NCBI GenBank assembly: GCA_015063895.1
Contig: SVTG01000019.1
Span: 1 to 36,346 of the forward strand
DNA from: Oscillospiraceae bacterium
GTDB lineage: Bacteria > Bacillota > Clostridia > Oscillospirales > CAG-272
Length of the DNA: 36,346 bases
Direction of reading: 5' to 3'
Shown here: positions 1,202-36,045 of the stretch, piece after piece
Layout of the letters: every line of letters starts with the position of its first letter
Position numbering within the stretch: the stretch's first letter is position 1
The notes under the pieces: model-generated
Seen by the model: only the letters and a program-made list of their open reading frames with translations
Told to the model about the DNA's origin: nothing
The model's database searches: none
Program-made: the position numbers and the translations under genes

Positions 1202-1217
1202 GCCGCCAAATCGGCTG

Positions 1218-2938: not shown

Positions 2939-2953
2939 AACAAATTCCCCCTT

Positions 2954-7585: not shown

Positions 7586-7588
7586 GCT

Positions 7589-7920: not shown

Positions 7921-7930
7921 GTTATATAAG

Positions 7931-7969: not shown

Positions 7970-8010
7970 TTCTTTTATGAATGACAGGATAAAAGGCCGT
8001 GGCTTTTTTC

Positions 8011-8823: not shown

Positions 8824-8839
8824 ATACTATCTCCTTTAC

Positions 8840-9973: not shown

Positions 9974-10010
9974 GTCACTCACTCCTTTCCCTTAATGACT
10001 TATCGTGTAT

Positions 10011-14408: not shown

Positions 14409-14411
14409 TTT

Positions 14412-15524: not shown

Positions 15525-15526
15525 AA

Positions 15527-19037: not shown

Positions 19038-19074
19038 TTCACTTTCCTCACGTACAATCACAAAATCGTTATTT

Positions 19075-20172: not shown

Positions 20173-20183
20173 ATCATTTCCCT

Positions 20184-21224
20184 TCATTTCGCACGGTATT
20201 GTGGGAAAAAGTTGCTTTGGGGCAAATCCTTACGCATTTGTGTGAGGACTTGGTAACGCGCCTCGTCAAAAACACGCTTCCCGATATAAAAACGCGGCAG
20301 ATTCTCACCACGGTAAAAAGAACGCTTAAACTTAAACAAGCTATCCTCACCGCTACCAACACCACCACCGAGATACAGCGTTTTGCACCCCTGCGTTCCC
20401 CCCCAGCATGCCGCCTCGTAAAGCAGCAGATTGGTGGGAGCCAAATGTGCGTATTCGCGCAAGGAGCCCGACAGGTGATAATTCATTCTTCCATTTGCGA
20501 TCAGCATGATCGAGGCGGCGATCACACGCCCCTCATACAGTGCATAAAACATCTCGGCATTTTCGGCAAGATCGCAGCGAACACTCTCGTAAAATGCAGA
20601 AGAAAAATAATAATACTTATCTGCATGATCCTTATCCATCGTGCCGTTGTATATCTCACGGAAGGTCTCGTAGACCCACGCCTGTGACGTGTGCAGAACG
20701 GTAACTCCGTTTTTTTGTGCTTTTCTGACCATGTTGCGATTTTTACTGGTCATATTTGCCCATATCTCTTCAGGCGAGGCGAGATCCATTGCCACAGTAG
20801 ATCCAAGCGCCACAACGTCGTATACGTCACTGACAGCCACGTGGTTTTCAATCATAGGATGAAAGCGCACAAATTCGGACACGATACCGTGCTCACAGCA
20901 GTATGCGGTGTACGCCTGCTGCAATGCGCCCGTATCCTCACCCTCGATCAACCAGCCCCCGTACCCATAGGGCGTGGCAAGGTCAAAATACGTATTCGGA
21001 GGCAAGCAACCCCGGAAACAGGACGCATCTGCAATATCCCGTTTCATCACCACGTTCATACCGCGCGTGTGCTCGTCTTCATAATAAAAGAGCTGTGGCT
21101 CACCGTCGCCATGGATATAGAATGCCCTCACATAGCCGCTCAACCAATAGGTGTCATACGCCTTAAAGGAGCGCACGATCTCATCCCATTGCTTATTCTC
21201 TTCTAATCCATAGACCATCAACAT
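20184..21224 (-). CDS. FemAB/GNAT-like transferase
   Basis: The 346-residue product looks like the FemAB-related GNAT superfamily (PF13480-like). It has an N-terminal degenerate GNAT domain, the MTSKNRNMVRKAQKNGVTV helix-strand typical of these proteins, and a C-terminal GNAT domain with VIAASIMLIANGRMNYHLSG and SLFKFKRSFYRG. Relatives add amino acids from aminoacyl-tRNA to peptidoglycan precursors, or acyl groups to sugars. Here the capsule context suggests acylation or aminoacylation of the repeat unit. The ATG at 21224 is used because AGAGG lies 10 nt upstream and the upstream TTG would overlap the previous gene. Confidence 0.78.
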   Translation of the reverse strand: MLMVYGLEENKQWDEIVRSFKAYDTYWLSGYVRAFYIHGDGEPQLFYYEDEHTRGMNVVMKRDIADASCFRGCLPPNTYFDLATPYGYGGWLIEGEDTGALQQAYTAYCCEHGIVSEFVRFHPMIENHVAVSDVYDVVALGSTVAMDLASPEEIWANMTSKNRNMVRKAQKNGVTVLHTSQAWVYETFREIYNGTMDKDHADKYYYFSSAFYESVRCDLAENAEMFYALYEGRVIAASIMLIANGRMNYHLSGSLREYAHLAPTNLLLYEAACWGGTQGCKTLYLGGGVGSGEDSLFKFKRSFYRGENLPRFYIGKRVFDEARYQVLTQMRKDLPQSNFFPQYRAK

Positions 21225-21231
21225 ACCCAAA

Positions 21232-22206
21232 CTACCTCTTTTCAAAAAACTCCTGTACCGTCCTCACAATGCGCATCATATCGGCCTCACCATAACGCTG
21301 ATCGCATACGAGGCTGAGCTCCTGTTCATAGATGCGGCGCGTTCCTTCGGTCGGACAAAGCTCAGCGGCGAGGGGCCAATGCACGGGGCAGTAGATCTCA
21401 TTTTCAATCAAATGACGGCGCAGCGCATCGCGATAAGGTGTCAAAATCGGATAACACAAAGGACAGGTGTCCTCGCTTGGCTCAAACAATGCGAATTCAT
21501 ACAAATACCGATGCAACAGCATTGCATTCTCCGTGCGTGCTGTGTGCAATGCGCCCACGTCAAGGTGCTGTGCGTGATACACATCATTTTCATTTGCTGC
21601 ATACAGGCCGCCACGGTCAAGCAAGCTCTCGGCTTGCGCAAAAAGCTGCAAATGAGCCTTGTCCTGCCTCTCACCACGAAGATACGACAATTTAGCCGCC
21701 ATCGCATCGCGCCGCAAATATTCAAATTCCCGAAGGTGGGGCAGCTCGGACATCGGGTGACGCAGACCAAAGGCATATCCACCGGTCAAAAAGCCCGCCC
21801 ACTTGCGCAGACTGCCGAAGCTATAAGCAGCATCCGTATACTGCTTTGTAAACAGCGAGTGCGTGGTATCACGTATCACAATTCCCTCAAAGCCAATCGG
21901 CACGGGGGTTTGATCGTAACCGAAATAATCCACCACCAGCAGAATATCCGCCTGCAACGGGGACGGTGGCTCAAGCGCCGCATAAAACGCGACCTTGATA
22001 CCCTTCTCCAAAAACGGCTGAACCATGCTTTCGCAGCACCAATCCGGCAATGCCGCCGTCTTTACGACCTTGGAAGCGCAGAGTTCTTCAATGATCGCCA
22101 AAAGCGCAGAACGCCCCGACATAAACCAAGCGGCACCGTCAAACAAGCGATTCTTCGCTTCACACACGGGGATTCCGAAGAACTCGCTTCCGATCTCGCG
22201 ATGCAT
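21232..22206 (-). CDS. Short DegT-like PLP-fold protein
   Basis: The 324-residue protein has the fold-type I aminotransferase pattern in reduced form: SGRSALLAIIEEL near the N-terminus, DILLVVDYFGYDQ, VIRDTTHSLF and the presumed PLP-lysine motif SFGSLRKWAGFLTGG (K135 in this numbering). It lacks part of the domain present in 370-400-residue DegT/DnrJ/EryC1 enzymes. It may act on a nucleotide sugar or another amino donor; a non-catalytic role is also possible. It is joined to the FemAB-like gene, whose ribosome site lies inside this gene's end. The ribosome site here is weak and the gene follows the carrier gene by 3 bp. Confidence 0.7.
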   Translation of the reverse strand: MHREIGSEFFGIPVCEAKNRLFDGAAWFMSGRSALLAIIEELCASKVVKTAALPDWCCESMVQPFLEKGIKVAFYAALEPPSPLQADILLVVDYFGYDQTPVPIGFEGIVIRDTTHSLFTKQYTDAAYSFGSLRKWAGFLTGGYAFGLRHPMSELPHLREFEYLRRDAMAAKLSYLRGERQDKAHLQLFAQAESLLDRGGLYAANENDVYHAQHLDVGALHTARTENAMLLHRYLYEFALFEPSEDTCPLCYPILTPYRDALRRHLIENEIYCPVHWPLAAELCPTEGTRRIYEQELSLVCDQRYGEADMMRIVRTVQEFFEKR

Positions 22207-22209
22207 CAC

Positions 22210-23604
22210 TTACTCTTGCAAGGAGCCGGCGTTCATTTTTTCCGCCTCACCCTCTCGCAGGTCTGCACCGGATCCCCCGCGCCAGCCAAACAGCAGGCGG
22301 CAGGCCACCAAAAAAGCAAGTCCGATCACGGTGACAATGATACCTACCGGCAGACAACCGAATTTCACAGTCAGCAACGGAATTATCGCTACTAAAAATA
22401 CTTCTATCACAGATTGCACGGTATAGGCATACCCAAAATCATCCAGCGTTTCCGATTTTGCATCGGGGTCACAGCAACGCAGCAGCGTCATGCCGACAGC
22501 CACAATGCCCGTCAAATAGCCAAAAATAAAGATGGAGCGCTCAAACCAAAAGTTTTTGAACAGGTGCTTGCCGACAAAAAATACAATCAAAAGCGGCCAA
22601 ACAATGCCGATTACCGCCATAATAAGAATCGGCACCAAGAACTCTGTGAATACGGAAAGCTTGATGGTCGCCACACCGAATGCTACCAAAAAGTCGGTCA
22701 TAAAACCGCTGCATCTATCTACCGTTTTCTTGTCGATATAGGTGTCGTGCTTGATCAGCTTCATCAAGAACTGCAGCAGCAGGCCGGCCAACATCGTCAG
22801 ACACATCAACGGGAAGGCAAGGTCGGGAAAAAGCTTATCAAGCCCTTGCTTGGCAGCATAACCGATACCAAAAGCCACCAGGATCAGCGCCAAATGCCAG
22901 CTCAGCGTATCCACAGACATGGTGTGGGTGGTATTTTCACCGATGCTTTCGCGCTTTTCGGAGGGAACAAAGCCGCGTCTTACCTCCTCGGGAAGCTGTA
23001 CCGCACGGCTGACAAAGCGCGTATAGCCCTTTTTAGCAGCAACGTTGATACAAACGATTCCTCCAAGGAGCCCGACAAGCAGGCCAAGCGTAGCAAATAC
23101 CTGACCGATGTATACGGCGTCTTCGCGTCCGAGCAGATCGTTCAAAGCGCCGCCGATGGCTGCGGCATAACCGTGGCCACCCGCAAAGCCCGAGGGGAGC
23201 AGAAGCGAAAACTCGGGAAAGACCTTGGGGAAAAAGAGCAGCAGAATACCGCCTCCGAGCAACAAGGCAAAGCCAAAGCAAAGGATCTCCGAGCCGGTGT
23301 TAATAAAGAAGGTATCCCCCACCTTATGAAGCAGATGGCCGCGCTTGCCGCCACCCATCTTTTTACCAAGGAAAATGGCACCGAAGATCACGCAGATCAG
23401 AAGATACGGATACGAAGAAGCCTCCGCACTCCAATGAATCACCTTGAGCACCTGCGGACCCAAGATCAAACCGATGGTGCCTGCGATCAGGGAAGCGGGA
23501 ATATAATGGTTTTGAAGCCACTTGATCTTACTTCTCAAAAACTGCGCCACAAGCAGCAATCCCGACATCCAAGCGAAATCGACAAAAAAATCATAAACTG
23601 TCAT
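22210..23604 (-). CDS. GltS-family sodium/glutamate-type symporter
   Basis: The 464-residue integral membrane protein resembles the Na+/glutamate symporter family (GltS, PF03616). It has two pseudo-repeats of about five helices, a conserved loop FAGGHGYAAAIGGAL close to the family's GGHGT region, and NHYIPASLIAGTIGLILGP near the N-terminus. A carrier of this kind is not a usual capsule gene. It lies between the ATP-grasp gene (15 bp) and the PLP-fold gene (2 bp) without its own promoter. It could bring in glutamate or a similar anion used by neighbouring enzymes, but the substrate is not proven. Confidence 0.82.
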   Translation of the reverse strand: MTVYDFFVDFAWMSGLLLVAQFLRSKIKWLQNHYIPASLIAGTIGLILGPQVLKVIHWSAEASSYPYLLICVIFGAIFLGKKMGGGKRGHLLHKVGDTFFINTGSEILCFGFALLLGGGILLLFFPKVFPEFSLLLPSGFAGGHGYAAAIGGALNDLLGREDAVYIGQVFATLGLLVGLLGGIVCINVAAKKGYTRFVSRAVQLPEEVRRGFVPSEKRESIGENTTHTMSVDTLSWHLALILVAFGIGYAAKQGLDKLFPDLAFPLMCLTMLAGLLLQFLMKLIKHDTYIDKKTVDRCSGFMTDFLVAFGVATIKLSVFTEFLVPILIMAVIGIVWPLLIVFFVGKHLFKNFWFERSIFIFGYLTGIVAVGMTLLRCCDPDAKSETLDDFGYAYTVQSVIEVFLVAIIPLLTVKFGCLPVGIIVTVIGLAFLVACRLLFGWRGGSGADLREGEAEKMNAGSLQE

Positions 23605-23619
23605 TTGTGTATCCCTTCC

Positions 23620-24894
23620 TTAATCCCACCACGTAGCAAGCACAGAGGTGTCAATTTTATCATAAACCATATCTTGTCCCTTTTCATCGCGCACGTCAAG
23701 CATGCTATAGGCACGCTCAGCGCAAGCCTGCAGGACAGCGGCATCGTCGCCAATAAAATGCGCCATGCCCAATTTGGCGAGGATCGCCTTGTCGTCGTGG
23801 CATTCCTGCCCGATATGTGCATTCTGCAGCGTAAACCGACACTGCGGTATCTCGCGGCGCATCTCCTGTAACCCCCGAATCGAGGTCACCACACCTTTTT
23901 TGGCATAGAAATTAAGCGTCACGCACTTTGCCGCACTCGGCGCAGCTATTTTGGTTTTAATCTCCCCACAAGAGCCGGTCAGTGCGTGATAGATAAACAG
24001 ATCCAGATTGCTGGGATAACCGAGTTCTGTATAATAATCATACAAATGACCGCCGCAAAGACGGAAGCCGGTCTCAAAAAACGACACGTTTTCGGACTCA
24101 TCCGCAAAGCCGGAAAAGAAAATATATCCGTTCTGAATACCCATGTTGCGGATCATACGACGTAGGGCAGCATCGGATTTTTTCACGATCACATCGTGCG
24201 CGCGTGAAGGAAGCAGCCAGCAGCTTTGCACCACTTTATCAAAGCCATTTTCTTTTGCATGGATAGTATCATCGGTAGAAAGAAGAATGATATCGCCGTC
24301 AATGATCGCGTAGTACGAGTCGATCTTCGTCGCATCCGAGATGTAGTCCTCGATGATGACGTTTTTCACCACCGACATCTCCATAGCATAATCGTATGCC
24401 CTTTGCAGCTCCTCACGGTTGGTCGCTACGCTGATCCCGATAGACCCACCGCGATCAACAGGCTTTACAATGACGGGGAATTTATCCACTTCCTCAGGCG
24501 AGAAATACTCGTGTATCACGGGCACGCCGTTTGCAATACAGGTATCCTTGAATTTCCGCTTGTCGCGCGTGATGTCCAATTGCTCCATCGTACAGTAGCA
24601 GGGCAAACCAAGCCGCTCGCACAGCTTGATTTGATTTTCCACGCGGAATTCGCTATAGCCTGCCACCACACCGTCAATACCGCTCTGACGGCATTTCTGT
24701 TCAAGCTCGTCAAGAGCACTCCAGCTGATGTTCCAAACCTCGTCAGCGATCTTTTTTGCGGGACTGATCTCATAGTTCTCATAATAATCGGTAACAATGG
24801 TATAAACACCCAGCTCCTTGGCGCGGCTCACCAATGAAATTTCATTTTCAGAGCCACCTAAGATCAAAAGCCTCTTACCCTTTAAGTTGTTCAT
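23620..24894 (-). CDS. ATP-grasp ligase
   Basis: The 424-residue protein has a pre-ATP-grasp Rossmann-like N-terminus (KRLLILGGSENEISLVSRA), followed by an ATP-grasp domain with FPVIVKPVDRGGSIGISVA as the glycine-rich nucleotide loop. VIIEDYISD and the metal-binding FFETGFRLCGG come next. Such enzymes join a carboxylate to an amine or thiol through an acyl-phosphate. Placed directly behind a sugar aminotransferase and the initiating transferase, it may attach an amino acid to an amino sugar. The ATG at 24894 (GGGAGGAG just upstream) overlaps the previous gene by 20 bp. An earlier ATG at 24945 would overlap by 71 bp and is less likely. Confidence 0.8.
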   Translation of the reverse strand: MNNLKGKRLLILGGSENEISLVSRAKELGVYTIVTDYYENYEISPAKKIADEVWNISWSALDELEQKCRQSGIDGVVAGYSEFRVENQIKLCERLGLPCYCTMEQLDITRDKRKFKDTCIANGVPVIHEYFSPEEVDKFPVIVKPVDRGGSIGISVATNREELQRAYDYAMEMSVVKNVIIEDYISDATKIDSYYAIIDGDIILLSTDDTIHAKENGFDKVVQSCWLLPSRAHDVIVKKSDAALRRMIRNMGIQNGYIFFSGFADESENVSFFETGFRLCGGHLYDYYTELGYPSNLDLFIYHALTGSCGEIKTKIAAPSAAKCVTLNFYAKKGVVTSIRGLQEMRREIPQCRFTLQNAHIGQECHDDKAILAKLGMAHFIGDDAAVLQACAERAYSMLDVRDEKGQDMVYDKIDTSVLATWWD

Positions 24895-25540
24895 GCTCCT
24901 CCCTACCTTTCTCCAATTGTTTTTTGCGATAATCGCTGAAATCACCCTGCTCCTCTGCTGCCACTACGTCAGCACGGGCAAAGACCTTCAGCACGGTCTT
25001 AAAGATAATTTTTATATCGAGCCACAGCGACACGCGCTGTACGTACTCCACGTCGTACGCAAGGCGCTTACCCCAATTGAGTGCCGTTCGGCCATTGACC
25101 TGTGCAAGACCTGTGAGGCCGGGACGGACCAAATGACGTTGCCGTTCCGTTTCGTTATAAAACTCAAGATATCCAACCGTCAGCGGGCGGGGGCCGACGA
25201 TGGACATATGCCCCACGAGGATATTGAAGAGCTCGGGGAGCTCGTCAAGCGAGGTGCTGCGCAGGAGCTTGCCGTATGTATTCAGGCGCTTGGCGTCGGG
25301 CAGGAGGTTGCCCTCCTTATCCCGCGCGTTTGACATCGTACGGAATTTTACGAGCTTGAAGATCTTCTCCTTGCCCGTCTTTTTGCTGATCTTACCCGGG
25401 CGCAGCTGGGTAAAGAAGGGGTTGCCGCGCATGGCAATGGCGCCGATCACCGTTAAAATGAGCAAAACGGGCGACAGGCACAACAGGGCCGTGAGAGAGA
25501 GCCAAAAGTCAAAAAAGCGTTTAAAAAACTTAGCGTACAT
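24875..25540 (-). CDS. PglC-like initiating sugar-phosphate transferase
   Basis: The 221-residue protein is a monotopic phosphoglycosyl transferase (bacterial sugar transferase, PF02397). It has an N-terminal re-entrant hydrophobic helix (KRFFDFWLSLTALLCLSPVL) and FKLVKFRTM, then the catalytic Asp-Glu pair in TSLDELPELFNIL, then MSIVGPRPL and RPGLTGLAQVNGR. It loads the first sugar phosphate onto undecaprenyl phosphate at the membrane. The short form without extra helices resembles PglC more than WbaP. The ATG at 25540, with GAGGGG 6 nt upstream and 10 bp after the previous stop, is preferred over a start 14 codons earlier. Confidence 0.9.
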   Translation of the reverse strand: MYAKFFKRFFDFWLSLTALLCLSPVLLILTVIGAIAMRGNPFFTQLRPGKISKKTGKEKIFKLVKFRTMSNARDKEGNLLPDAKRLNTYGKLLRSTSLDELPELFNILVGHMSIVGPRPLTVGYLEFYNETERQRHLVRPGLTGLAQVNGRTALNWGKRLAYDVEYVQRVSLWLDIKIIFKTVLKVFARADVVAAEEQGDFSDYRKKQLEKGREEHEQLKG

Positions 25541-25550
25541 AGCACACCCC

Positions 25551-26741
25551 TCACTTGCCAAAGCAGGCACGGATCGTTTCAATAATGATATCCTGCTCCT
25601 CGGGCGTCATCTTATTGTCGCTGGGCAGACACAGACCGCGTGCAAAGATATCGGCACCGACGTCAGCACCGTCGGTAGCGGCCACAAAATCATTGGCGGC
25701 ATACAAGGGCTGCAGGTGCATCGGCTTCCAGATCGGTCTGCCCTCGGCGCCGAGCGCCGCCAGGCTTTCTAAGATCTCGGTCGGGCAGGTCTTGCCCTTC
25801 TCGTGCGTATAAGTGGCGGTATGGTCGTCACGTGTCTGCGGGCACATAGCCGCCCCGTCAATGAGCATACACGAGAGCCAGTAGTTCGGTACCATCTTAT
25901 CCGCCTCAAAGGGGTTCATGGAAACGGGCAGATCGGCAAAGCCTTGGCGATAGCGCTCAAAGATCGCCTTCTTCTGTGCGATATGCTCGGCAAGGTAGGG
26001 GAACTGACCGCGCACCACGCCTGCCACCACGTTGCTCATACGGTAGTTATAGCCGACCTCGGTATGCTGATACCACGGGGCGTTATCGCGGCTCTGTGTT
26101 GACCATTTCCGCGCGCGGTCTGCGGCGTCCTTATCGTCGGTCAGCAGCATGCCGCCCGATGAGCCCGTGATGATCTTATTGCCGTTGAAGGAAATGGCGT
26201 TATAATGCCCAAAGCTGCCCGTCTGCACACCGCGGTACGTGGCGCCAAGCGACTCGGCCGCGTCCTCCACCACCACAGCGCCGTGACGGCGGCACACGTC
26301 CATCAGCTCATCCAGGCGTGCCGGGGTGCCGTAAAGATGCGCAAAGACCACCACGCGCACGTCGGGATAGCGCGCGAAGGCGCGCTCCAGTGCCTCGGGG
26401 CTCATATTCCACGTGGCGTATTCGGTATCGATAAAGATCGGCACACCGCCCTCGTAGACCACAGGATTGAGGGTCGCCGCAAAGGTCATATCCGAGCAGA
26501 ACACGAGCTCACCCTTTTTCACGCCCGCCAGCTTGACGGCAAGGTGCAGGGCTGCCGTGCCGCTTGACAGCGCCACAGCATAACGACACCCCACCTGCGC
26601 AGCAGCCATTCGCTCTACCTCATTGATATTGGCACCGACCGTTGACATCCAGTTGGTCTCAAAGGCCTCGGTCATATAGGTAAGCTCCTCGCCATGCATA
26701 GTGGGGCTGGAAAGATAGATCTTCTTTGCAAGGGTTTTCAT
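25551..26741 (-). CDS. DegT/DnrJ/EryC1-family nucleotide-sugar aminotransferase, PglE-like
   Basis: The 396-residue PLP enzyme transfers an amino group to a keto-sugar nucleotide. The PLP lysine is K189 in SFNGNKIITGSSGGML, a sequence form typical of UDP-4-amino-sugar aminotransferases such as PglE. The aspartate that contacts the pyridine nitrogen is in VVVEDAAESLG (157-167), and SSGTAALHLAVK (59-70) binds phosphate. It is the first gene of the 17-gene operon and sits beside the PglC-like transferase, so the first sugar is probably a 4-amino sugar of the bacillosamine kind. No PglF-type dehydratase or PglD-type acetyltransferase is in the window; the dehydratase must be elsewhere. Confidence 0.9.
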   Translation of the reverse strand: MKTLAKKIYLSSPTMHGEELTYMTEAFETNWMSTVGANINEVERMAAAQVGCRYAVALSSGTAALHLAVKLAGVKKGELVFCSDMTFAATLNPVVYEGGVPIFIDTEYATWNMSPEALERAFARYPDVRVVVFAHLYGTPARLDELMDVCRRHGAVVVEDAAESLGATYRGVQTGSFGHYNAISFNGNKIITGSSGGMLLTDDKDAADRARKWSTQSRDNAPWYQHTEVGYNYRMSNVVAGVVRGQFPYLAEHIAQKKAIFERYRQGFADLPVSMNPFEADKMVPNYWLSCMLIDGAAMCPQTRDDHTATYTHEKGKTCPTEILESLAALGAEGRPIWKPMHLQPLYAANDFVAATDGADVGADIFARGLCLPSDNKMTPEEQDIIIETIRACFGK

Positions 26742-26880: not shown

Positions 26881-26915
26881 ACGAAAAGCCCCCGTCCGTG
26901 ACGGGGGCTTTTCGT
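26881..26915 (-). terminator. Perfect-stem terminator of the RyR/AAA+/YbjN operon
   Basis: ACGAAAAGCCCCCGT and ACGGGGGCTTTTCGT form an uninterrupted 15-bp stem with a 5-nt loop, 22 bp beyond the stop codon of the last gene. The T tract is inside the stem on the descending arm (CTTTTCG) rather than after it. Confidence 0.88.
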
Positions 26916-26937
26916 CATATTGGTGCCGCGACGGTCC

Positions 26938-29121
26938 TCAGCGGCGTACGATCTTGAAGCCTGCGGCATCCAGCAGCCAGTGAGCATCGTCAAGAAGCTG
27001 ATAGTCGTATTTGATCACGTCGCGGGCCTGCTCCTCACACCTATCGCGTGCGGCAACCATCTGGCGAAACGCAATTAAGCCCTCAAACGTGGTGAGATTT
27101 CCGTGGCGGCGCACGGTATAATTCTTGCCGTTTGTAAAGCGCGTGCCGCCCTTGCCGTCAGGTACGGTCTCCTCCTTGATCTGACGCAGGCTGGCCGGCA
27201 CCATGCCCTGACTGATCATAAACGAGTTCCAGCGCTGGTGCTCGTGTATGGCCATCGTGCGGCGCCTTGACTGCGGGAAGCGCAGCGTATAACGGCGCAC
27301 GGGCTTGCCTGCGACCGTCAGCTTTCCTTCCTGCTGCGGCAGGTCGTCGCCCGCATAGATCGCCATATATTCCTCAGCGGAAAGTCCCTCCCCTGCGGCG
27401 CTCTTTTCACAGTAATCAAGACCCATCAGGTTCAATTTGGTGCGCAGGCTGAGGCACGCATACAGGTTAGATTCACGCTCAAGCTGCGACTTTTTCACAT
27501 ACCAGTCGCGGTGTGCCTTCTCGTATGCCGCGGCCACAGTGGCCTCGTCAACCGTCAGCGACGTATTGGTCGTGAGATCATACTCAATATCGTAAACGGC
27601 ATTACGCATACGGGCCATGCTGAAAATATCGTCGTCAAGCAATTTGTCAATGTGATAGACGGCATCGCGCTCATTGGCAATGAAATAGCACCCCTCGTCC
27701 TCAAGCAGCGTCTGCTCCTTATGCCAGGTACGCGCCTTCACGAAGATCACCAGGTCGGATAGCCCCCATTCGCGGCGCTTTTCCACCAGCTTTTGTGCCA
27801 TATCGATATTTTCAAGATCGCTGCCAAAGGCGATCACGATAAAATTGGCGTCGTTTTTCCCCTTGGTCACCGCCTCGCGGACCTGCGTATAAAAGCGCAC
27901 GTCGTTGACGTCAAGACGGTAATAGTGCTCCTCGGCGGGCAGGGCCGGCAGGGGCAGATACTCCCCTTCACTGAGATTGGCGCACTCGTTTTTATAACGG
28001 TAGTAGCTATGATTGAAATTTTTGTTGTTGCCCGCATCGGCGCGGTCAAAAATATGGTAGTGCACGGGCTTGAGAACGGGATCCCCCGCACCCTGTGTTA
28101 AAAACTGATTGTTTGCCACGGACGTAAGGAAGATCTGCTGATTGGTCTTGCCAAAGCCGATCATCAGCACGTTGATATCCACCCCGGGGCGCACCAGCGA
28201 GGTGTCAAAATCGATCTGCTTTGCCCCCATAAAGCGCGAAAGCGGGTACCTGTCGATAAAGTCCATGGCGATCTTGCGGTATTTATTGCAATATTGCAGG
28301 CACCCAAGACCGTCACCAACGATATCCTCGTAGACGGTCTCGTAGCGCGGATCACCGAACACAAAGACCTTCAAGCCCTCAAAAAGCGCGGCCTGCGCCT
28401 CGGCAGGCACCTCGCGCATACGGTCAACGAACCGACGGCAAAGGAGCATGTTTTTCTCGTCGCTGTCCGTTTGTATCACGGCCACGCACCTTCGCCCGCG
28501 GCGCAGGACCATAGTAAAGAGCACCTTGATCATATCCTCGCTAACGGGTGTGGAAATATAGGATATTTTGTTAAAGTACAGGTGCTCGCAGTCCTTCGGC
28601 GAAAGGTCGTCCACGATCACTCTGCATCTGTTTTTTTCACTTTTATACAAATCGACCGACGCCTTGCTGTAACCGAAAATAAACAGCTTATCGCCGCGCC
28701 CCCAAAGCACCTTCATACGCTCAAAGAACTCAAACAGGTGCTGGCTGAGCAACGAAAGCGTCAGCAAAACGGCATTGAGCCCTACCATCAAAAAGCAAAG
28801 TGCGATGGTGAAGGTAAACAGGCGGCTATCCTCCATGATCGCCGTGAGGCCCTTGAAGTTATACTTCAGCACAACAAGGCTGAAGCATTCGCTAATGGCG
28901 GAAAACAGACCCGACAGCAGATCCTGCCCGCCGTAAACGTAGCCGACCCAGTACAGCGGCACGGCGGTGATATATACGATAACGCACTTGCCCTTTTTGA
29001 AGCTGCGGATAAAGGCAATGCGCTGCGGACGCTTTTGCAGCACGTACAGCAGCACCACCGCGGCACATTCCACCAGCAGCGCCACCAGGCACAAAAGCGT
29101 GACTAAATTGGTTAAAAACAT
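26938..29121 (-). CDS. Membrane protein with tandem Rossmann-like domains and a degenerate RyR-like C-terminus
   Basis: The 727-residue product begins with membrane segments at about 4-27, 45-63 and 103-128. Two Rossmann-like (TrkA-N/RCK-like) units follow. The first starts at KLFIFGYSKAS (145-155) and the second at INVLMIGFGKTNQQ (316-329), where the last glycine of GxGxxG is lost. At the C-terminus, IHEHQRWNSFMISQGMVP (625-642) and RRHGNLTTFEGL (671-682) match the EHxRW and HxxLxxFexL parts of a RyR domain, with an insert between. It is a distant paralogue of the first protein of the same operon. The last gene of the operon, it follows a 32-nt palindrome and has GAGGTGA 6 nt before its ATG. 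It may be a ligand-gated membrane sensor or effector. No K+ filter is seen. Confidence 0.72.
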   Translation of the reverse strand: MFLTNLVTLLCLVALLVECAAVVLLYVLQKRPQRIAFIRSFKKGKCVIVYITAVPLYWVGYVYGGQDLLSGLFSAISECFSLVVLKYNFKGLTAIMEDSRLFTFTIALCFLMVGLNAVLLTLSLLSQHLFEFFERMKVLWGRGDKLFIFGYSKASVDLYKSEKNRCRVIVDDLSPKDCEHLYFNKISYISTPVSEDMIKVLFTMVLRRGRRCVAVIQTDSDEKNMLLCRRFVDRMREVPAEAQAALFEGLKVFVFGDPRYETVYEDIVGDGLGCLQYCNKYRKIAMDFIDRYPLSRFMGAKQIDFDTSLVRPGVDINVLMIGFGKTNQQIFLTSVANNQFLTQGAGDPVLKPVHYHIFDRADAGNNKNFNHSYYRYKNECANLSEGEYLPLPALPAEEHYYRLDVNDVRFYTQVREAVTKGKNDANFIVIAFGSDLENIDMAQKLVEKRREWGLSDLVIFVKARTWHKEQTLLEDEGCYFIANERDAVYHIDKLLDDDIFSMARMRNAVYDIEYDLTTNTSLTVDEATVAAAYEKAHRDWYVKKSQLERESNLYACLSLRTKLNLMGLDYCEKSAAGEGLSAEEYMAIYAGDDLPQQEGKLTVAGKPVRRYTLRFPQSRRRTMAIHEHQRWNSFMISQGMVPASLRQIKEETVPDGKGGTRFTNGKNYTVRRHGNLTTFEGLIAFRQMVAARDRCEEQARDVIKYDYQLLDDAHWLLDAAGFKIVRR

Positions 29122-29230
29122 AAAAACTCACCTCGTTTATGGGGTAAATGATAGCAGAAGACTAAGAACCCACCCTAAAGCCTTGCTTTTTGGCGCTTGG
29201 TGCACTTGCCACTCTTGCAAAGCCTACCGT

Positions 29231-29262
29231 CACGGCGTGCCCCACGCGTGGGGCACGCCGTG
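29231..29262. promoter_or_regulatory. 32-nt perfect palindrome inside the operon
   Basis: CACGGCGTGCCCCACG is followed directly by its reverse complement, giving a 32-nt palindrome 6 bp past the stop of the second YbjN-like gene. No T tract follows on the minus strand, so it is not a standard terminator. Candidates are an RNA-stabilising or processing element that sets different levels for the last gene, or a protein-binding site. Confidence 0.65.
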
Positions 29263-29268
29263 AAAGGA

Positions 29269-29748
29269 TCACTCGTTGATCTTATTCATATACTCCTGCA
29301 AGGAGATCATCCCCTTGCCGAGCATAAAGAACAGATCGTTATAGTTATCCACCGTAGAGGCGGAAACGTTTACCATATACTCAAAAAGCTCATAGCCGAC
29401 CAGACTGTCGCGGAAGCTGTTGACCAGGCGGAATACCACCATGCCGTCGCTGAGGTCGTAATCAAAGGCACCGTGTGCCAGCTTATAGTTGGCCTCGCAG
29501 GTCGCCACGGCACCCTCGGCGCGCTTATCCTCGGGGAATTTGTAGGGCAACACGGAGATCAGACGCACGAGCTGACGCTCCGCGTCGCAGCTGATGGCGA
29601 ATTCCATAGGCAGATCGTCACCGTTCACACCGTAGGTCACCCGCATCTTCTCTTCTTCAACCTTGTATTTCCAATTCATTTTGTCTAACGCGCCGCAAAG
29701 GCTGTCAAACACGCTTTTTGCTTTTCTTAATTCCTTATCAGTTGCCAT
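29269..29748 (-). CDS. YbjN-like protein, second tandem copy
   Basis: The 159-residue soluble protein looks like the YbjN/secretion-chaperone-like fold: a helical start, a strand-rich centre with GDDLPMEF (43-50), PEDKRAE (72-78) and a C-terminal block RDSLVGYELFEYMVNV (113-128) and VDNYNDLFFMLGKGM (133-147). It aligns with the next gene without a gap over all 159 residues, about half identical by hand count, so the pair arose by tandem duplication. YbjN-type proteins are thought to be regulators or chaperones that bind partner proteins. The ATG at 29748 with AAGGAGGG 7 nt upstream is chosen; the spacing to the preceding gene is 13 bp. Confidence 0.75.
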   Translation of the reverse strand: MATDKELRKAKSVFDSLCGALDKMNWKYKVEEEKMRVTYGVNGDDLPMEFAISCDAERQLVRLISVLPYKFPEDKRAEGAVATCEANYKLAHGAFDYDLSDGMVVFRLVNSFRDSLVGYELFEYMVNVSASTVDNYNDLFFMLGKGMISLQEYMNKINE

Positions 29749-29761
29749 AACCGTACCCTCC

Positions 29762-30241
29762 TTAGCCGTTTTCCTGCTTGATGAAATCCTCAATCGACAG
29801 CATGCCCTTGCAGATCATAAAGAACTTGTCGTTATAGCGGTCGACCGTGCCGCAGACGATATTGACCATATAGTCAAGCATCTCGGTGCCGATGAGGCTG
29901 TCACGGTAGCTAGACGCCACGCGGAAAAACGTGGTGCCGCTTGACAGGGTGTAGTCAAAAGAGCCGTCGACCATGCCCCAGTTTGCCACGGATACGGCAA
30001 CTGCCATATCCACGCGCTTATCCTCGGGCACCTCAAAGCCGAGCTTGGAATAAACGCTCACCAGCATACGCTCGGCGTCTACCGTTGCGAAGATATCCAT
30101 CGGCAGATCGTCGCCGCGAATGGTGAGGGTGACACTCAGCTCGTCGTCATCACGCTTGTAGTGCCAGTTGTTACCGTCAAGCGCCGCACACAGGGACCCG
30201 TAGACGGTGCGTGCCTGCTCTTGTTGCTTTTGTGTTGCCAT
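29762..30241 (-). CDS. YbjN-like protein, first tandem copy
   Basis: This 159-residue protein is the paralogue of the neighbouring gene: GDDLPMDIFATVDAER (43-58), VPEDKRVD (71-78), YRDSLIGTEMLDYMVNI (112-128) and YNDKFFMICKGMLS (136-149). No signal peptide or membrane helix is present. It follows the AAA+ ATPase gene by 20 bp and has AAAGGAG 7 nt before the ATG. A chaperone, adaptor or substrate-presenting role for the AAA+ ATPase is suggested by the context. A homo- or heterodimer of the two copies is plausible because the fold usually dimerises. Confidence 0.75.
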   Translation of the reverse strand: MATQKQQEQARTVYGSLCAALDGNNWHYKRDDDELSVTLTIRGDDLPMDIFATVDAERMLVSVYSKLGFEVPEDKRVDMAVAVSVANWGMVDGSFDYTLSSGTTFFRVASSYRDSLIGTEMLDYMVNIVCGTVDRYNDKFFMICKGMLSIEDFIKQENG

Positions 30242-30261
30242 AGTAATTCTCCTTTTCTCTA

Positions 30262-32337
30262 TTACATAAATCCGATATGACGCTTGTGGGCAGACCTGAA
30301 AGCAAACTCCTTGTCGCCGAGTGAGCGCTCAAAATCGTCTTTAGTCAAAATAACGCTTCCCTTGCCCGCCAGCTGGCAGCGCATAGAAGCCTTGGCCCAG
30401 GTGCGCTCAAACAAATTGCGCACAAAGCGCGCGTTGCTGAACTCCTTGGCCGTGATCATTTCCTCAGGCAGGCTTTCGAAATAAGCCTTGGCACGGGGAA
30501 AGAGGTCTTGATCATGCTTGAAGTGACGCTCGACCATGGAAACGAAGATCGCATACAGCTCCTCACGTGTAAAATTCGGAAATTCAATGACGTAAGGCAT
30601 TCTGCTGGCAAGCCCCGCGTTGCCCAGCATCAGACGCTCCATATCGTCGGTATAGCCCGCCATGATGACGACCAGATCCGCGCGATGGTTCTCCATTTCG
30701 GCGATCAGCGTATCCAGCGCCTCACGCCCGAAATCGCGGTCGTTGCCGTCGCCGCGATACAAGGAATAGGCCTCGTCGATAAAGAGCACCGATCCGTAGG
30801 CGTCGCGGCACATGCCCGCCGTCTTGGGGGCAGTTTCACCGATATAGCGTCCGCAGAAATCGCGGCCGCTGTACTCAAAAAATCCACCCACGCGCAGCAC
30901 GCCGCGCTCCTTGAGGATCTTACCGACGATCCTGGCCACGGTCGTCTTGCCCGTACCGGGGTTGCCGACAAAGCGCATATGGATACAGGGCGCACCGAGG
31001 CTTTTATCGGCACGTGCCAGCTCAATTTGTGCGATGATCTCGTCAATGCGTGCGGCAATGCGCTCACCGCCCACCAGCTCGCGAAGCTGCGCGGCACCCG
31101 ACTGCGCCGTAGCAGGGGTCGCACAGAGTGCAGCGGTATCGCGGCGGGTCACGGTGCGCTCGTTTTTGCCGCGGCGGGCATTGTCAAGCTGCTTTTGGTA
31201 AAGGAGCTCCCGCACGACCTTTTTGGTCGTTTTCAGACCGTAAAAGCGCCCATCGCTTTTCTCCTCGGCGATGCGATCGTAAAAGCCCTCCATGGCGCCG
31301 CTCGAAAAACGGAAGCCGTAGGCAGAAAGCTCGCGCTCGGCACAGCGTGCGATCTCCTCGCGGGTGAGGGGCGGAAAGCTCAGCACCTTCAGGGAAAGCA
31401 CGTCGGCAATGGCGGCGCGCACGCCCGAAAGCACCTCTTTGTCAACAAAGGGCATACGGAATACGACGATCAGATCGCGCATATTGCGCTCGATCTCAAG
31501 CAAAAGCGTGCGGAACAGGCGCGTGTTCACGTGCGAGATCCACTCGCTGATATCCAAAGAGAGCACCGGCGCCTTTCCCGAGGTGCTCACACGGTGCAAT
31601 ATGCGGAAAATATCCGAAAAGACCTCGGTGTCCTCACCCTTGGGTGGCGGCAGGACCTCCTCCCGGATCTTGGCACGCCGATCGACCTGACGCAGTCCGA
31701 GGTCGCCGAGCTTGGCGGCAAGCAACGAGAGATAGGTGGTATAGCCGTATCCCTCACCGATCGCAAACAAGTAGGCCTGATAGCACACGGTATCAAAGGT
31801 CTTATTCTCCGTGATAACGGGGGCAATGAGCGAAAGCTCCTCAAACAGGCTCTTCAGCTCGCCGCAACCAACCAGATCGTCAATATCGGGCAGGTCGGCG
31901 CCAAGCGGTGCCTCCTCGGCCTCGTCCTTACTGCCGAAAAACGCCGCAAAGGGGTCGCTTTCCTGTCGGGCGGCGTCCCTTTCGCGCTCGGTTTCCTCCT
32001 TTGCGGAGGCCTTTTCGGGCGTTTGCTCGGGTGGCTGCTCCTGCTCCGTTTTCGGGGTATCTGCCACCTCCTCCAGGGTGACCGTCAAGGCCGCCCCGAC
32101 CTCCGAGGAGGGGTATTTTTTGGCAAGCAGAGCCCTGATCTCCTTTTCAAGGACGCCCCTTTCGGGGGCAGCGTCGGTCAAAGTGAACGAGGCCGAGGTA
32201 AAGGCGGTATCCCTTTGCTGCAGGACACCCGCAAATTTTTCGGCCAGTGCGCCGCACACGAACGCGATCGGCAGCACGTCGTCGTCGCGGTGCGCCAGCA
32301 CAAAGGCATCGGAAAGTTCAATTACAAGCTGCTTCAT
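30262..32337 (-). CDS. Double-AAA+ ATPase, CbbX/SpoVK-like, with an inactive first module
   Basis: The 691-residue cytoplasmic protein has an N-terminal domain (1-95), then an acidic, Q/E/P-rich linker (about 95-150). A first AAA+ module (about 155-395) carries GEGYGYTT (194-201) in place of GxGKTT, with the P-loop lysine changed to tyrosine. The second, active AAA+ module (about 415-691) has Walker A GNPGTGKT (458-465), Walker B VLFIDEAYSL (517-526), sensor region VVIMAGYTDD (556-565) and the arginine-finger segment NAGLASRMPY. The second module resembles CbbX, SpoVK and EccA, which remodel protein complexes. The ATG at 32337, with AAGGA 6 nt upstream, is preferred over the ATG overlapping the previous stop. 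Its partners are probably the RyR-like membrane proteins and YbjN-like proteins of the operon. Confidence 0.82.
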   Translation of the reverse strand: MKQLVIELSDAFVLAHRDDDVLPIAFVCGALAEKFAGVLQQRDTAFTSASFTLTDAAPERGVLEKEIRALLAKKYPSSEVGAALTVTLEEVADTPKTEQEQPPEQTPEKASAKEETERERDAARQESDPFAAFFGSKDEAEEAPLGADLPDIDDLVGCGELKSLFEELSLIAPVITENKTFDTVCYQAYLFAIGEGYGYTTYLSLLAAKLGDLGLRQVDRRAKIREEVLPPPKGEDTEVFSDIFRILHRVSTSGKAPVLSLDISEWISHVNTRLFRTLLLEIERNMRDLIVVFRMPFVDKEVLSGVRAAIADVLSLKVLSFPPLTREEIARCAERELSAYGFRFSSGAMEGFYDRIAEEKSDGRFYGLKTTKKVVRELLYQKQLDNARRGKNERTVTRRDTAALCATPATAQSGAAQLRELVGGERIAARIDEIIAQIELARADKSLGAPCIHMRFVGNPGTGKTTVARIVGKILKERGVLRVGGFFEYSGRDFCGRYIGETAPKTAGMCRDAYGSVLFIDEAYSLYRGDGNDRDFGREALDTLIAEMENHRADLVVIMAGYTDDMERLMLGNAGLASRMPYVIEFPNFTREELYAIFVSMVERHFKHDQDLFPRAKAYFESLPEEMITAKEFSNARFVRNLFERTWAKASMRCQLAGKGSVILTKDDFERSLGDKEFAFRSAHKRHIGFM

Positions 32338-32348
32338 GGTGCTTCCTT

Positions 32349-34241
32349 TCATTCCCCACGCTTGGCGGATACGTCGTCCTTGGCCTTTTCCCGATCGCTT
32401 AGGCCTTCAAAGGGCTTCAGATCGGGGTGGGTCTTGGCAATATGGCTGCGCACGTTGGCATCAAACACGTATCCCTCCGAGCGCATAAAGGCGCTCCAGC
32501 GATTGTGCTCCAGGATCGCCTGCTCGGTGCCCGAGGGCAGATGAAGCCCCAGCTTCTTCAGCACCTCCACGTGCACGGCGGTGGCGATCGATGCGCGGCG
32601 GTAATACTCAAATTTTTCATAGGCCTCACGGCTCTCGGTGATCTGCTTGTCGATCTCGTCGGCGGTGCCGCCTGCGGCCACGATCTTTTGCTTTTCGTGC
32701 GAGAGCCACGCGAGGTGGATCTCAAGTCCCTTCTCCTCAAGCGCGCGCTGCTCGATGACTGCCAGCGAATAGCGCGTGCGCATGTCACCGATAAAGGTGA
32801 TGCCATAGCTCTCCTTGCCAAGGCTCTTGAGGCCCCCGCACTGTGCGAAGGTATCGGTCTTGACGGTGTTATACACGACCGAGAAGATATGCGGCACGTC
32901 GTAGCCGCGACTCTGCTGCAGGCGACCGAGCTCACCGCGCAAGCGCATGGCGGTCTCAATGTTCAGTTCATCGTTACCGAGGGTGACAAAGGCGGCGGTC
33001 AGGGGCCCGAGGTCAGCGAGCGTTTTGGCAAACGCATCGGTCTTGACGTCAATGTTCGGATAAAAATGAAGCTCGTAATGGGGCTCGCCCGCGATCTGCT
33101 TGCCGCTGCCCGCGATCAGCTCGGGGGCGGCTGCGGCCAGCCGCTCCCGAGGATCGGCAATACGGTCGATGACGTGCAGGGACACGCGATAGCCCGGGAG
33201 CTGCGCGCACCAGCAGATCGATTTCAAAAACTCATCACCGTAGCTGCCGCTGCCGACGATGAGAACGTTCAGGCAGCGGTAGCCGTCACGTATCAGGGAG
33301 GTGTCAAAAATGGGGTAATCCAGCAATGCGCCCATCACCAGATTGCGCTTCTCGTTGACGCGGCGCACACGCATACGGCCGTTATCAACGGCATCCAGCA
33401 ATGCCTCGCTCTCCACACTCGTGGCGAATACGTAAAACGCCGTATCGGGCGTGTTCAGAGCCTCCACCGCACGGGCGCGACCGATAAGAGTGAGGGCTTG
33501 TCTTACGTTGTCATCATCGGATCCGGCGATAAAATACAGCTTTCGTGTGACACGGCGGCGGCCAAGACCGATCTCGGTGATATCCTTACGGAAAAGCACC
33601 GCACCCATATCGCGTGCCTGGTCAATGAGATCTGCTCTGGCAGTGTCCTCGCTGTCAAACACGTTAAAGAAGACGATCAGCGGCCGTTTGCCCTCGTGCT
33701 TATCGAGAATATCGTTTGCCAGCGCCACAGAGGTCTCGTTGAGGTCGGATATGTAATACACACACCGCGCACGGCTGAGGGTGTAGCGCATAAACGCGGA
33801 GAAGTTTTTGAAAAAGGAAAGCACAAACCCCGCACTGAGAACGGGTGCCACAGCTGTCAGGGCCGTAGCATACAGCAAATACAAACGCCCGACGGGGGCA
33901 AAGCCCGCAGCGAGGCTCGCGATCCCCAGCTCCACCGCCTCAAGATCGCCCTCTGCCAAAAACAGGCGTATCGTGCTGTACAGCGCCGAGAAGACCGCAC
34001 GCAGCACCACAGCCAGCCAAAGCCCCTCGCCGCCCGCCAGATAGGCCGAGAAAAAGATCAGAAATCCGCCGATAAAAAAGCAGGCCAAAAAGCACTGAAA
34101 GGGCGTCAGGGGCAAACGGCGCGCGATCGCCCTTTTTGCGCTCCCCGTGGCGCGCACGCGCCACAAGCTCCCTATAGCGCCGCCGACGACCAACCCGAGG
34201 GAAAGCACCAGCGTCACGGTAAATAAGATTCCAAAATGCAT
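32349..34241 (-). CDS. Membrane protein with tandem Rossmann-like domains and a C-terminal RyR domain
   Basis: The 630-residue product has membrane segments at about 4-26, 47-69, 73-95 and 117-145. Two Rossmann-like domains follow. The first starts near 160 and has lost its glycine motif; the second has an intact LNVLIVGSGSYGDE (324-337). The C-terminal part (about 573-622) is a good RyR domain: ILEHNRWSAFMRSEGY (576-591), then KTHPDLKPFEGLSDREKAKDD (603-623), read as KTHPDLKPFEGL and SDREKAKDD. In eukaryotes RyR domains occur in ryanodine receptors. Bacterial RyR domains are known from comparative genomics and have been proposed to sense nucleotide-derived ligands. It is the first gene of the operon, behind a consensus promoter, with GGAGG 4 nt before the ATG. 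A gated channel-like or signalling role is an inference. Confidence 0.75.
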   Translation of the reverse strand: MHFGILFTVTLVLSLGLVVGGAIGSLWRVRATGSAKRAIARRLPLTPFQCFLACFFIGGFLIFFSAYLAGGEGLWLAVVLRAVFSALYSTIRLFLAEGDLEAVELGIASLAAGFAPVGRLYLLYATALTAVAPVLSAGFVLSFFKNFSAFMRYTLSRARCVYYISDLNETSVALANDILDKHEGKRPLIVFFNVFDSEDTARADLIDQARDMGAVLFRKDITEIGLGRRRVTRKLYFIAGSDDDNVRQALTLIGRARAVEALNTPDTAFYVFATSVESEALLDAVDNGRMRVRRVNEKRNLVMGALLDYPIFDTSLIRDGYRCLNVLIVGSGSYGDEFLKSICWCAQLPGYRVSLHVIDRIADPRERLAAAAPELIAGSGKQIAGEPHYELHFYPNIDVKTDAFAKTLADLGPLTAAFVTLGNDELNIETAMRLRGELGRLQQSRGYDVPHIFSVVYNTVKTDTFAQCGGLKSLGKESYGITFIGDMRTRYSLAVIEQRALEEKGLEIHLAWLSHEKQKIVAAGGTADEIDKQITESREAYEKFEYYRRASIATAVHVEVLKKLGLHLPSGTEQAILEHNRWSAFMRSEGYVFDANVRSHIAKTHPDLKPFEGLSDREKAKDDVSAKRGE

Positions 34242-34295
34242 AGTTCCTCCACGCGTGCAAGCTATGCGCGCAGATAAAATAGTATATTTAATTTT

Positions 34296-34324
34296 ATTTT
34301 ACAACTTTTATACCGACTTGTCAA
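34296..34324 (-). promoter_or_regulatory. Near-consensus sigma-A promoter of the RyR/AAA+/YbjN operon
   Basis: TTGACA (34319-34324), a 17-nt spacer and TAAAAT (34296-34301) on the minus strand. Transcription should begin near 34289, giving a leader of about 48 nt. Confidence 0.88.
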
Positions 34325-35191: not shown

Positions 35192-35930
35192 GAAATGGTT
35201 CCTCCCCATTCTTATGTTATGCGCGTGCGCGGATCTTGTCATATTGTGGGGCGTTTGTTTGTGGCACGTGCGAAAACGACCGATGCATGCCTTGTCGCAA
35301 ACGGACGACCGATGGTCGCCCCTACAAGCGTAGGTTTTCTTTTGTCGTGTATGCCATGTAAAAGGTTTACATTCATAGGGGCGTGCATTGCACGTCCGCG
35401 AATGAACGATAAACGGACGACCGATAAACGGACGACCGATGGTCGCCCCTACAAGCGTAGGTTTTCTTTTGTCGTGTATGCCATGTAAAAGGTTTACATT
35501 CGTAGGGGCGTGCATTGCACGTCCGAAAAAGACCGATGCGGACGCCCAATCAACGGACGACCGATGGTCGCCCCTACAAGCGTAGGTTTTCTTTTGTCGT
35601 GTATGCCATGTAAAAGATTTACATTCGTAAGGGCGTGCATTGCACGTCCGAAAACGACCGATGCGGACGCCCAATCAACGGACGACCGATGGTCGCCCCT
35701 ACAAGCGTAGGTTTTCTTTTGTCGTGTATGCCATGTAAAAGGTTTACATTCGTAGGGGCGTGCATTGCACGTCCGAAAACGACCGATGCATGCCTTGTCG
35801 CAAACGGACGACCGATGGTCGCCCCTACAAGCGTAGGTTTTCTTTTGTCGCGTATGCCATGTAAAAGGTTTACATTCGTAGGGGCGTGCATTGCACGTCC
35901 GCGAATAGACGATAGACGACGACCGATAAA

Positions 35931-36020
35931 CGGACGACCGATGGTCGCCCCTACAAGGGATAACGGTGCCCGCACGAACGGCGTAAAAAATTGACCGTAG
36001 GGGCGTGCATTGCACGTCCG
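35931..36020. repeat. Variant REP doublet with a different core
   Basis: The two arms match those of the main array (CGGACGACC...CGCCCCTAC and GTAGGGGCG...CGTCCG). The 42-nt core is unrelated, with ATAACGGTGCCCGCACG followed by GTAAAAAATTGACC. This shows that the arms, not the core, define the mobile unit. Confidence 0.8.
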
Positions 36021-36045
36021 CGAAATGTTTGCACCACGCAAAAAC

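Follow-up and report, generated by a model that had tools for sequence, protein, structure and literature searches.

We analyzed a 36,346-nt stretch of DNA from an Oscillospiraceae bacterium (CAG-272; contig SVTG01000019.1 of assembly GCA_015063895.1), hereafter the window, and in it a group of five genes that may encode a nucleotide-gated ion channel. An earlier note had placed these genes at positions 26881..34324, and the coordinates and translations of the open reading frames (ORFs) bear this out. Gene 1 (P0001, 630 aa; 32349..34241, minus strand like all the others) encodes a predicted RCK-type channel subunit with a C-terminal RyR domain. It is followed by gene 2 (P0002, 691 aa; 30262..32337), which encodes a CbbX/EccA-like AAA+ ATPase whose N-terminal AAA-like module is degenerate, and by two genes for YbjN-like proteins of 159 aa each, gene 3 (P0003; 29762..30241) and gene 4 (P0004; 29269..29748). 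Gene 5 (P0005, 727 aa; 26938..29121) is a distant full-length paralog of gene 1, with a membrane part, two Rossmann-like regions and an RyR-like end.

According to the ORF coordinates, the first four genes follow one another at distances of only 11, 20 and 13 nt and are likely to lie on one transcript. A consensus scan returned a promoter-like site (TTGACA-17-TAAAAT, 11 of 12 consensus bases; 34296..34324, minus strand) and a terminator-like hairpin of 16 pairs (26881..26915, minus strand), so that sites of both kinds do flank the group, where the earlier note had one promoter and one terminator. That they delimit a single unit is nevertheless unproven, because a 147-nt gap parts the second YbjN-like gene from gene 5. 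This gap holds a perfect 34-nt palindrome without a T-run (29230..29263, read from the sequence), whose 26-nt core occurs at a single place in the whole genome even when up to two mismatches are allowed. Moreover, the scan returned 11 promoter-like sites and 30 terminator-like hairpins when 5.1 and 12.8, respectively, were expected from shuffles, which is no proof of either signal.

All five genes are syntenic in one other locus, from an Oscillospiraceae metagenome-assembled genome (L051), with 83-91% protein identity and ratios of nonsynonymous to synonymous substitution rates (dN/dS) of 0.077-0.166. The second YbjN-like gene of this locus was masked by an antisense ORF and was recovered by tblastn. 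Given this synteny and the low dN/dS, the five genes are real and under constraint.

A channel-type protein with an RyR domain

The membrane part of gene 1 (33942..34235, minus strand) was delimited from an AlphaFold model, hydropathy and column composition. In the model, helices at residues 3-31 and 47-70 are followed by a pore-helix-like segment (75-94) and by a further helix (112-155), while hydropathy and column composition point to a filter-like LAEGDL at residues 95-100. Two predicted RCK (Rossmann-type) gating domains come next, the first at residues 160-300 (33342..33764, minus strand) and the second at residues 321-485 (32787..33281, minus strand), the latter with an invariant GxGxxG at 330-335. 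On the strength of the model and of the fold comparison, we assign the RCK fold to gene 1 with high confidence. The fold matches come from a second look with VIA-align at the folds ranked highest by Foldseek. The membrane segments reported by the earlier note are confirmed by hydropathy and by the model. The note had read the membrane proteins as sensors or effectors and missed that gene 1 folds, in the model, like a subunit of an RCK-gated ion channel.

The best fold match of gene 1 is to CASTOR, POLLUX and DMI1, at 12% identity in the structural alignment. These are plant Ca2+ channels that share with gene 1 the tandem RCK domains after the pore, which is putative in gene 1, and the lack of a TVGYG filter, but they are nuclear channels with four predicted membrane segments, compared to three plus a pore-like helix in gene 1, and no RyR domain is mentioned in the available part of their description (PMC6697748). 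Some alignments with GsuK, MthK and Slo1 begin at gene 1 residues 13-50, although they were scored over their whole length and not on the membrane part alone; a GsuK alignment that spans residues 26-499 takes in some of the membrane part. Gene 1 has in common with GsuK, MthK and TrkA/KtrA the RCK gating domains, and differs from them in the lost K+ filter, the added C-terminal RyR domain and the AAA+ and YbjN-like partners. The TVGYG selectivity filter was not found in gene 1, and residues 97-99 of the family are mostly D/G/N, G/A/C and D/E.

The RyR domain occupies residues 572-630 (32352..32528, minus strand), and the EHxRW...HPDLKPFEGL motif reported earlier is indeed present. A profile of 70 gene 1 family sequences matches solved RyR domains at about 5e-6 (3.7e-13 for two copies), and it also matches, weakly, the structure 35tm of the phage protein RyDEP (E 0.033). 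A Pfam RyR match at E 0.01 is detectable in 25 of the 70 family members. Together, these matches indicate that the domain is real. When compared with PHROGs, the RyR part of gene 1 matched phrog_5154 (2e-5) and phrog_11782 (0.014), two phage families without assigned function.

RyDEP is a phage inhibitor of Thoeris, acting as glycosidase or sponge; its RyR domain binds 3' cyclic ADP-ribose (3'cADPR) through H75, W78, H100 and D117, with H75 and D117 as the catalytic pair, as stated in the portion of the report available (PMC13232231). The equivalent residues of gene 1 are H579, W582, H605 and D622, spaced by 3, 23 and 17 residues as compared to 3, 22 and 17 in RyDEP. In fold and pocket, gene 1 resembles both RyDEP and RyR proteins of bacteria (for example, PDB 3nrt), and it differs from RyDEP in that its RyR domain is fused to a channel-like host protein.

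We measured the conservation of the pocket in an alignment of P0001 with 69 of 76 listed relatives (the members of L051-L130 with 560-760 aa, from 100 cluster members). H579, W582, H605 and D622 are kept in 69, 70, 70 and 69 of the 70 sequences, respectively. The conservation of H579 and W582 is partly due to construction, since the pattern used for retrieval (EHxRW[NS][AM][YF]M) is present in 67 of the 70 rows. We therefore relied also on pattern-free controls: the four residues are found in 12, 12, 14 and 10 of 14 relatives retrieved by whole-protein search, and in 9, 9, 9 and 6 of 9 proteins from an evenly drawn sample of the order. The conserved pocket, controls included, therefore supports an adenine-dinucleotide-like ligand. 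Binding of an ADP-ribose-type nucleotide by the RyR domain of gene 1 is slightly more probable than not.

The same residues are open to another reading, in which RyR domains act as sinks that bind or hydrolyze TIR-made signals and dampen signaling, while the membrane and RCK parts serve for localization only. RyDEP, a glycosidase or sponge with these very residues, sets a precedent, both catalytic residues have their counterparts in gene 1, and solo RyR genes lie beside channel genes in 8 of the 89 mapped loci described below. On the other hand, none of the tested RyDEP homologs besides the founding member cleaved 2'/3'cADPR, in the part of the work accessible to us (PMC13232231), and a gating ring in the same chain would be typical of ligand gating rather than of a sponge. 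We consider the sink improbable.

The paralogy of genes 1 and 5 proposed earlier is confirmed by profile comparison (99.3% over 510 columns). In gene 5, H628, R630, W631 and H673 are invariant in all five aligned sequences, and the position of the Asp is ambiguous. Its relatives in L055 and L056 (433 and 457 aa) are shortened, without the membrane part and the first Rossmann region, and come after the gene 1 relative, with an AAA+ gene in between in L056. A search from P0005 returned 5 of 146 genomes of the family, own genome included. Of the other four loci, L031 and L033 have no TIR, AAA+ or YbjN neighbor. In L032, the gene 5 relative (57% identity) precedes a TIR gene, a second gene that is TIR-like but falls slightly short of the cut-off, an AAA+/FtsH gene and a YbjN gene. 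In L034 (12153-17285), a distant gene 5 relative adjoins a large protein that by eye resembles a DUF4062/STAND-type NTPase, with a MORN-repeat-like gene (also by eye) behind it.

Gene neighborhoods and distribution of the relatives

A scan of species genomes returned 242 relatives of gene 1, of which the best 80, from Clostridia or Bacillota and mostly from metagenome-assembled genomes, were analyzed. Together with the window and with loci found in the family's 146 genomes, and after removal of three duplicate contigs and of 5 of the 80 without called ORF, they gave 89 mapped loci. We defined as runs the series of genes on the same strand with gaps of at most 250 nt; those that contain the gene 1 relative account for 31.3% of bases. 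Genes were called with a simple longest-ORF method, so that the counts of partners are low rather than high; as an example, a solo RyR gene beside the channel gene was missed in L105 and found in the same contig as L202.

Overall, the runs of gene 1 relatives contain TIR genes in 21 of the 89 loci, AAA+ genes in 16, solo RyR genes in 8, YbjN genes in 7, genes for nucleases with CARF and PD-(D/E)XK domains in 7, and a second gene 1-like paralog in 8. The AAA+ genes are either CbbX-like or encode a two-AAA enzyme with an M41 protease domain. TIR genes are found more frequently inside than outside these runs (22 and 7, respectively; P-value 1e-6, with genes treated as independent as in all enrichment tests), and the same trend holds for AAA+ (16 and 1) and YbjN genes (11 and 3), while the control ABC and MATE transporters each occur once inside and five times outside. 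CARF-nuclease genes are enriched in runs beside gene 1 relatives as well. Ten of the 33 TIR-like proteins were checked against Pfam, and all ten match TIR_2 at E <=0.01, nine of them above the cut-off. Several neighboring TIR proteins carry LRR, TPR, Sel1 or beta-propeller repeats in the same chain. The same Glu, which we take to be the catalytic one, is present in all 32 TIR rows that reach its column (31 proteins, duplicates included).

The arrangement of the partners varies. L069 reads YbjN-YbjN-CARF nuclease-channel-AAA+/FtsH-channel-RyR-TerB-like, L128 reads channel-AAA+/FtsH-channel-RyR-TIR, L056 brings genes 1, 2 and 5 together, and L074 has an ADP-ribosylglycohydrolase gene about 90 nt upstream. 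The fixed order claimed by the earlier note is not borne out, as the complete five-gene set was seen in only one close relative (L051; 1 of the best 80 loci, 5 of them without called ORF and many on short contigs). The neighborhood search that it had proposed shows that the parts co-occur beyond this genome, although the exact order is rare; nucleotide-signal genes, namely TIR, CARF nuclease and one ADP-ribosylglycohydrolase, do lie near relatives. In the evenly drawn order sample, the channel gene has TIR, AAA+, solo RyR or CARF genes as neighbors in 6 of 15 other places; 7 of these 15 contigs were already among the best 80 loci, and partners occur in 4 of the 8 new ones.

Other genes recur near the channel gene. 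A pair of genes (about 740 aa, then 1300-1970 aa) lies upstream of it in L085 (1-9685), L200 (1339-9334) and L201 (11857-19000); the large protein of this pair is found in 13 loci, with no clear Pfam family and no significant enrichment in runs. In 4 of the 89 loci, the run of the channel gene also encodes a further membrane protein (L085 14497-16614, L200 11252-13348), about 700 aa long and without Pfam family; by eye, it has a hydrophobic stretch like that of a pore and is perhaps another channel. Proteins of cluster c8 (270-350 aa; for example, L113 8728-9666), present in 7 loci, have no Pfam family and look by eye like sigma factors, and the one in L101 is followed by a small protein that resembles, again by eye, an anti-sigma factor.

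Relatives of gene 1 occur in 15 of the 146 genomes of the family at E 1e-5 and, in evenly drawn genomes, in 15 of 245 of the order; the phylum sample has 1 of 398, own genome included each time. None was found in the three other genomes of the same genus that were searched. The distribution of the gene 1 family is patchy. We considered an origin from mobile elements and rejected it, with relatives in 1 of 50,697 phage records and in none of 72,556 plasmid records; among viral contigs, none of 16 pattern matches was confirmed as a gene 1 relative. The single phage record, MT835673.1 (unannotated 'Bacteriophage sp.'), bears its relative at 16788-18452 (residues 48-623, 32.6%).

This distribution bears on a rival explanation, in which an RCK channel made of genes 1 and 5 serves ion homeostasis and is gated by ordinary metabolites (NAD, ADP/ATP), with the RyR domain as a sensor of energy charge, the AAA+ and YbjN-like proteins as assembly factors and no role in conflict. 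TrkA, KtrA and GsuK have the same fold, and the structures listed hold ADP, ATP analogs or NAD according to their entry titles. In addition, a gene for a ZIP-type metal transporter lies upstream of the operon both in the window and in L051, CitMHS/ArsB-like transporters are enriched in the runs of relatives (8 genes inside, none outside), and in 11 of the 89 loci no other gene shares the run with the channel gene. The patchy occurrence and the enrichment of TIR and CARF-nuclease genes near relatives argue against such a role, which we regard as unlikely, if a serious contender.

Two TIR genes lie on other contigs of the genome that hosts the window, so that a signal could come in trans. One of them has a CitMHS-like gene next to it; the two share 66% and 64% identity with the pair that accompanies the gene 1 relative of L052. 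A TIR-LRR gene of the genome is on contig C2. The second TIR gene (L176, own contig C18; 7899-8924) encodes 341 aa, with weak matches to V4R and XylR_N below the cut-offs in its C-terminal half.

In the rest of the window, ten further proteins were scanned and correspond to transport, redox, pyrophosphatase and polysaccharide genes. Positions 8011-26741 hold several genes of polysaccharide synthesis (deacetylase, nucleotidyltransferases, polysaccharide-synthesis membrane protein, O-antigen ligase-like, FemAB-like and ATP-grasp) and a glutamate symporter-like gene, and a gene for a membrane H+-pumping pyrophosphatase lies at 5168-7141. Upstream of the ZIP gene, at 35264-36024, is an array of tandem repeats of about 125 bp, in which a 152-nt reference is matched five times at 73-100%.

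The AAA+ ATPase and the YbjN-like proteins

Gene 2 had been described as a double AAA+ protein with Walker motifs. This stands for the second module, whose P-loop is intact (GNPGTGKTT), but the corresponding segment of the first module is degenerate (GEGYGYTT). The C-terminal module scores above the cut-offs for AAA (64.6 bits) and AAA_lid_6 (32.4 bits), with P-loop, Walker B and lid intact. An hhalign comparison of the two modules returned a score of 29.9 with a probability of 14%, as compared to at most 18.7 in 20 column shuffles, and the sequence is suggestive of an AAA-like region in the N-terminal half.

The C-terminal AAA+ domain and lid are shared with CbbX, SpoVK and EccA, while the extra degenerate module and the partners set gene 2 apart. 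It scores below the NCBIfam equivalog cut-offs for all three, and was assigned neither to SpoVK (223.1, cut-off 422.95) nor to CbbX (205.6, cut-off 459.25) nor to EccA of type VII secretion (183.5, cut-off 466.65). The profile of gene 2 has three matches at E 1e-10 among PDB sequences, with EccA1 third (1.8e-50). PHROGs gave eleven matching families for gene 2, none of them labelled as defense; the top one (3.7e-27) has no assigned function.

Genes 3 and 4 score just over the cut-off of 22 bits for Pfam PF10722 (24.1 and 27.8, respectively), in agreement with the earlier assignment as YbjN-like proteins. A search from YbjN returned 8 of the 146 family genomes, and five of the seven others have a gene of the system in the same stretch or within 10 kb (L032, L048, L159, L161 with L044, and L163), in three cases directly beside an AAA+ gene; no such gene was seen near the YbjN loci L160 and L162. 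In L159, which follows the AAA+-YbjN-YbjN order of the window, and in L163 the AAA+ and YbjN genes are adjacent without a channel gene. A gene for a VirD4/TraG-like coupling ATPase (6419-8107) adjoins the group of L159, and L101 has a relative of this ATPase together with a ClpP gene upstream (986-4890).

The adjacency without a channel gene, as well as the gene content of the operon itself, would fit the pair of membrane sensors of the earlier note, assembled or reset by the AAA+ machine with YbjN adaptors in a stress or phage response and here taken to lack a channel function. As the modeled fold of gene 1 is that of an ion-channel subunit, we give this proposal a low probability. More remote still is a secretion-type module in which an EccA-like ATPase and YbjN-like proteins, akin to type III chaperones, handle exported substrates and the membrane proteins are coincidental neighbors. 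It would explain the match to EccA1, the VirD4-like neighbor in L159 and the resemblance of YbjN proteins to type III secretion chaperones noted in the available excerpt of PMC9503650. However, the EccA score is far from its cut-off and none of the 16 window proteins scanned matched a secretion channel, which makes this module very improbable. The same excerpt (PMC9503650) links YbjN/TY-chaperones to ADP-ribose-related conflict systems. Those systems share the YbjN family with the operon but are centered on an ADP-ribosylglycohydrolase, which lies here beside one relative only (L074).

A candidate nucleotide-gated channel module

RCK domains form a gating ring in known channels, and TIR-domain enzymes make messengers such as ADP-ribose and cyclic ADP-ribose from NAD+. 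We tentatively read the operon as a nucleotide-gated ion-channel module within a nucleotide-signal conflict or stress system, a reading that as a whole falls somewhat short of probable. Gene 1 would be a CASTOR/GsuK-type channel with a membrane pore, two RCK domains and a C-terminal RyR domain, and gene 5, by homology, its paralogous partner subunit in a common complex. The RyR domain would bind an adenine-dinucleotide-like messenger, for example ADP-ribose or cyclic ADP-ribose, whose binding may alter the gating ring so that the pore opens or closes, and the resulting ion flux may halt growth or trigger a stress or anti-phage response. Assembly, resetting or dismantling of the channel complex would fall to the CbbX/EccA-like ATPase together with the two YbjN-type chaperones. 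Membership of the module in such a conflict or stress system based on nucleotide signals is, taken by itself, evenly balanced, while an action of the AAA+ and YbjN-like proteins on the channel is possible but doubtful.

None of the known systems compared accounts for the operon. In PADLOC-DB 2.0.0, genes 1, 3, 4 and 5 have no match up to E 1 and gene 2 has six weak matches to ATPase-type models (E 1.8e-5 to 0.048); with no match to an assigning profile, the operon was not classified as a PADLOC defense system. As to the link to defense proposed earlier, nucleotide-signal genes do lie near relatives, but PADLOC and PHROGs assign no protein of the operon to a defense system. Thoeris consists of a TIR protein and a SIR2-SLOG or Macro-TM effector. 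TIR genes, several with ThsB-like profile matches, adjoin relatives as in Thoeris, but the operon has no TIR gene and none of its five proteins matches a SIR2-SLOG or Macro effector, and it was rejected as Thoeris. The single parts are known; we found no earlier description in the open-licence literature of an RyR-RCK channel or of this gene set, that is, of an RCK channel-type protein with an RyR domain and a paired subunit in an AAA+/YbjN/TIR/CARF context.

Several observations weigh against the channel-module reading. As to gene 1, its filter-like region corresponds to no known selectivity filter in the column comparison, and taken alone it scores 20.7 bits against Pfam RyR (PF02026), under the cut-off of 27.4. 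The pocket residues guarantee no particular ligand, because six of the eight tested RyDEP homologs bound 2'/3'cADPR, and two divergent relatives of gene 1 (L043, 5505-7430; L046, 16064-17968) lack H579 and W582, possibly as a branch with a different ligand; the one in L043 adjoins a MORN-like gene (by eye). For gene 5, Pfam returned no match, nor did its family match any PDB sequence at E 1, and structure prediction, which gave the RCK fold of gene 1, failed for gene 5, whose model (predicted local distance difference test 43, from 4 sequences) was not used. No TIR gene lies inside the operon, and no defense gene is found among the ten further window proteins scanned. Finally, in 50 of the 89 loci the run lacks TIR, AAA+, YbjN, solo RyR and CARF-nuclease genes alike, and in 11 the channel gene has its run to itself, several gene 1 relatives sit among housekeeping genes, and 10 of 13 other loci with gene 2 relatives in the 146 family genomes have no partner gene by local profiles.

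RyR domains occur in animal calcium-release channels, in which the role of cyclic ADP-ribose has long been debated, a question touched on in PMC13232231. In its most specific form, the nucleotide-gated module would be a bacterial channel with an RCK gating ring and an RyR domain, gated by cyclic ADP-ribose and switched by TIR enzymes, with two subunits and its own AAA+/YbjN remodeling machine. It would be a counterpart of the proposed axis between cyclic ADP-ribose and the ryanodine receptor and, within TIR immunity, an effector branch of the channel type. We regard this full form as unlikely. The combination of a channel-type fold and an RyR domain in one bacterial chain, with TIR genes in the runs of 21 of the 89 loci, makes the gating of RyR domains by a TIR-made nucleotide testable in a small system. 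If the reading is true, ion flux through RCK channels would be a new output of TIR signaling, and the AAA+/YbjN pair would offer a clue to the way in which these channels are reset.

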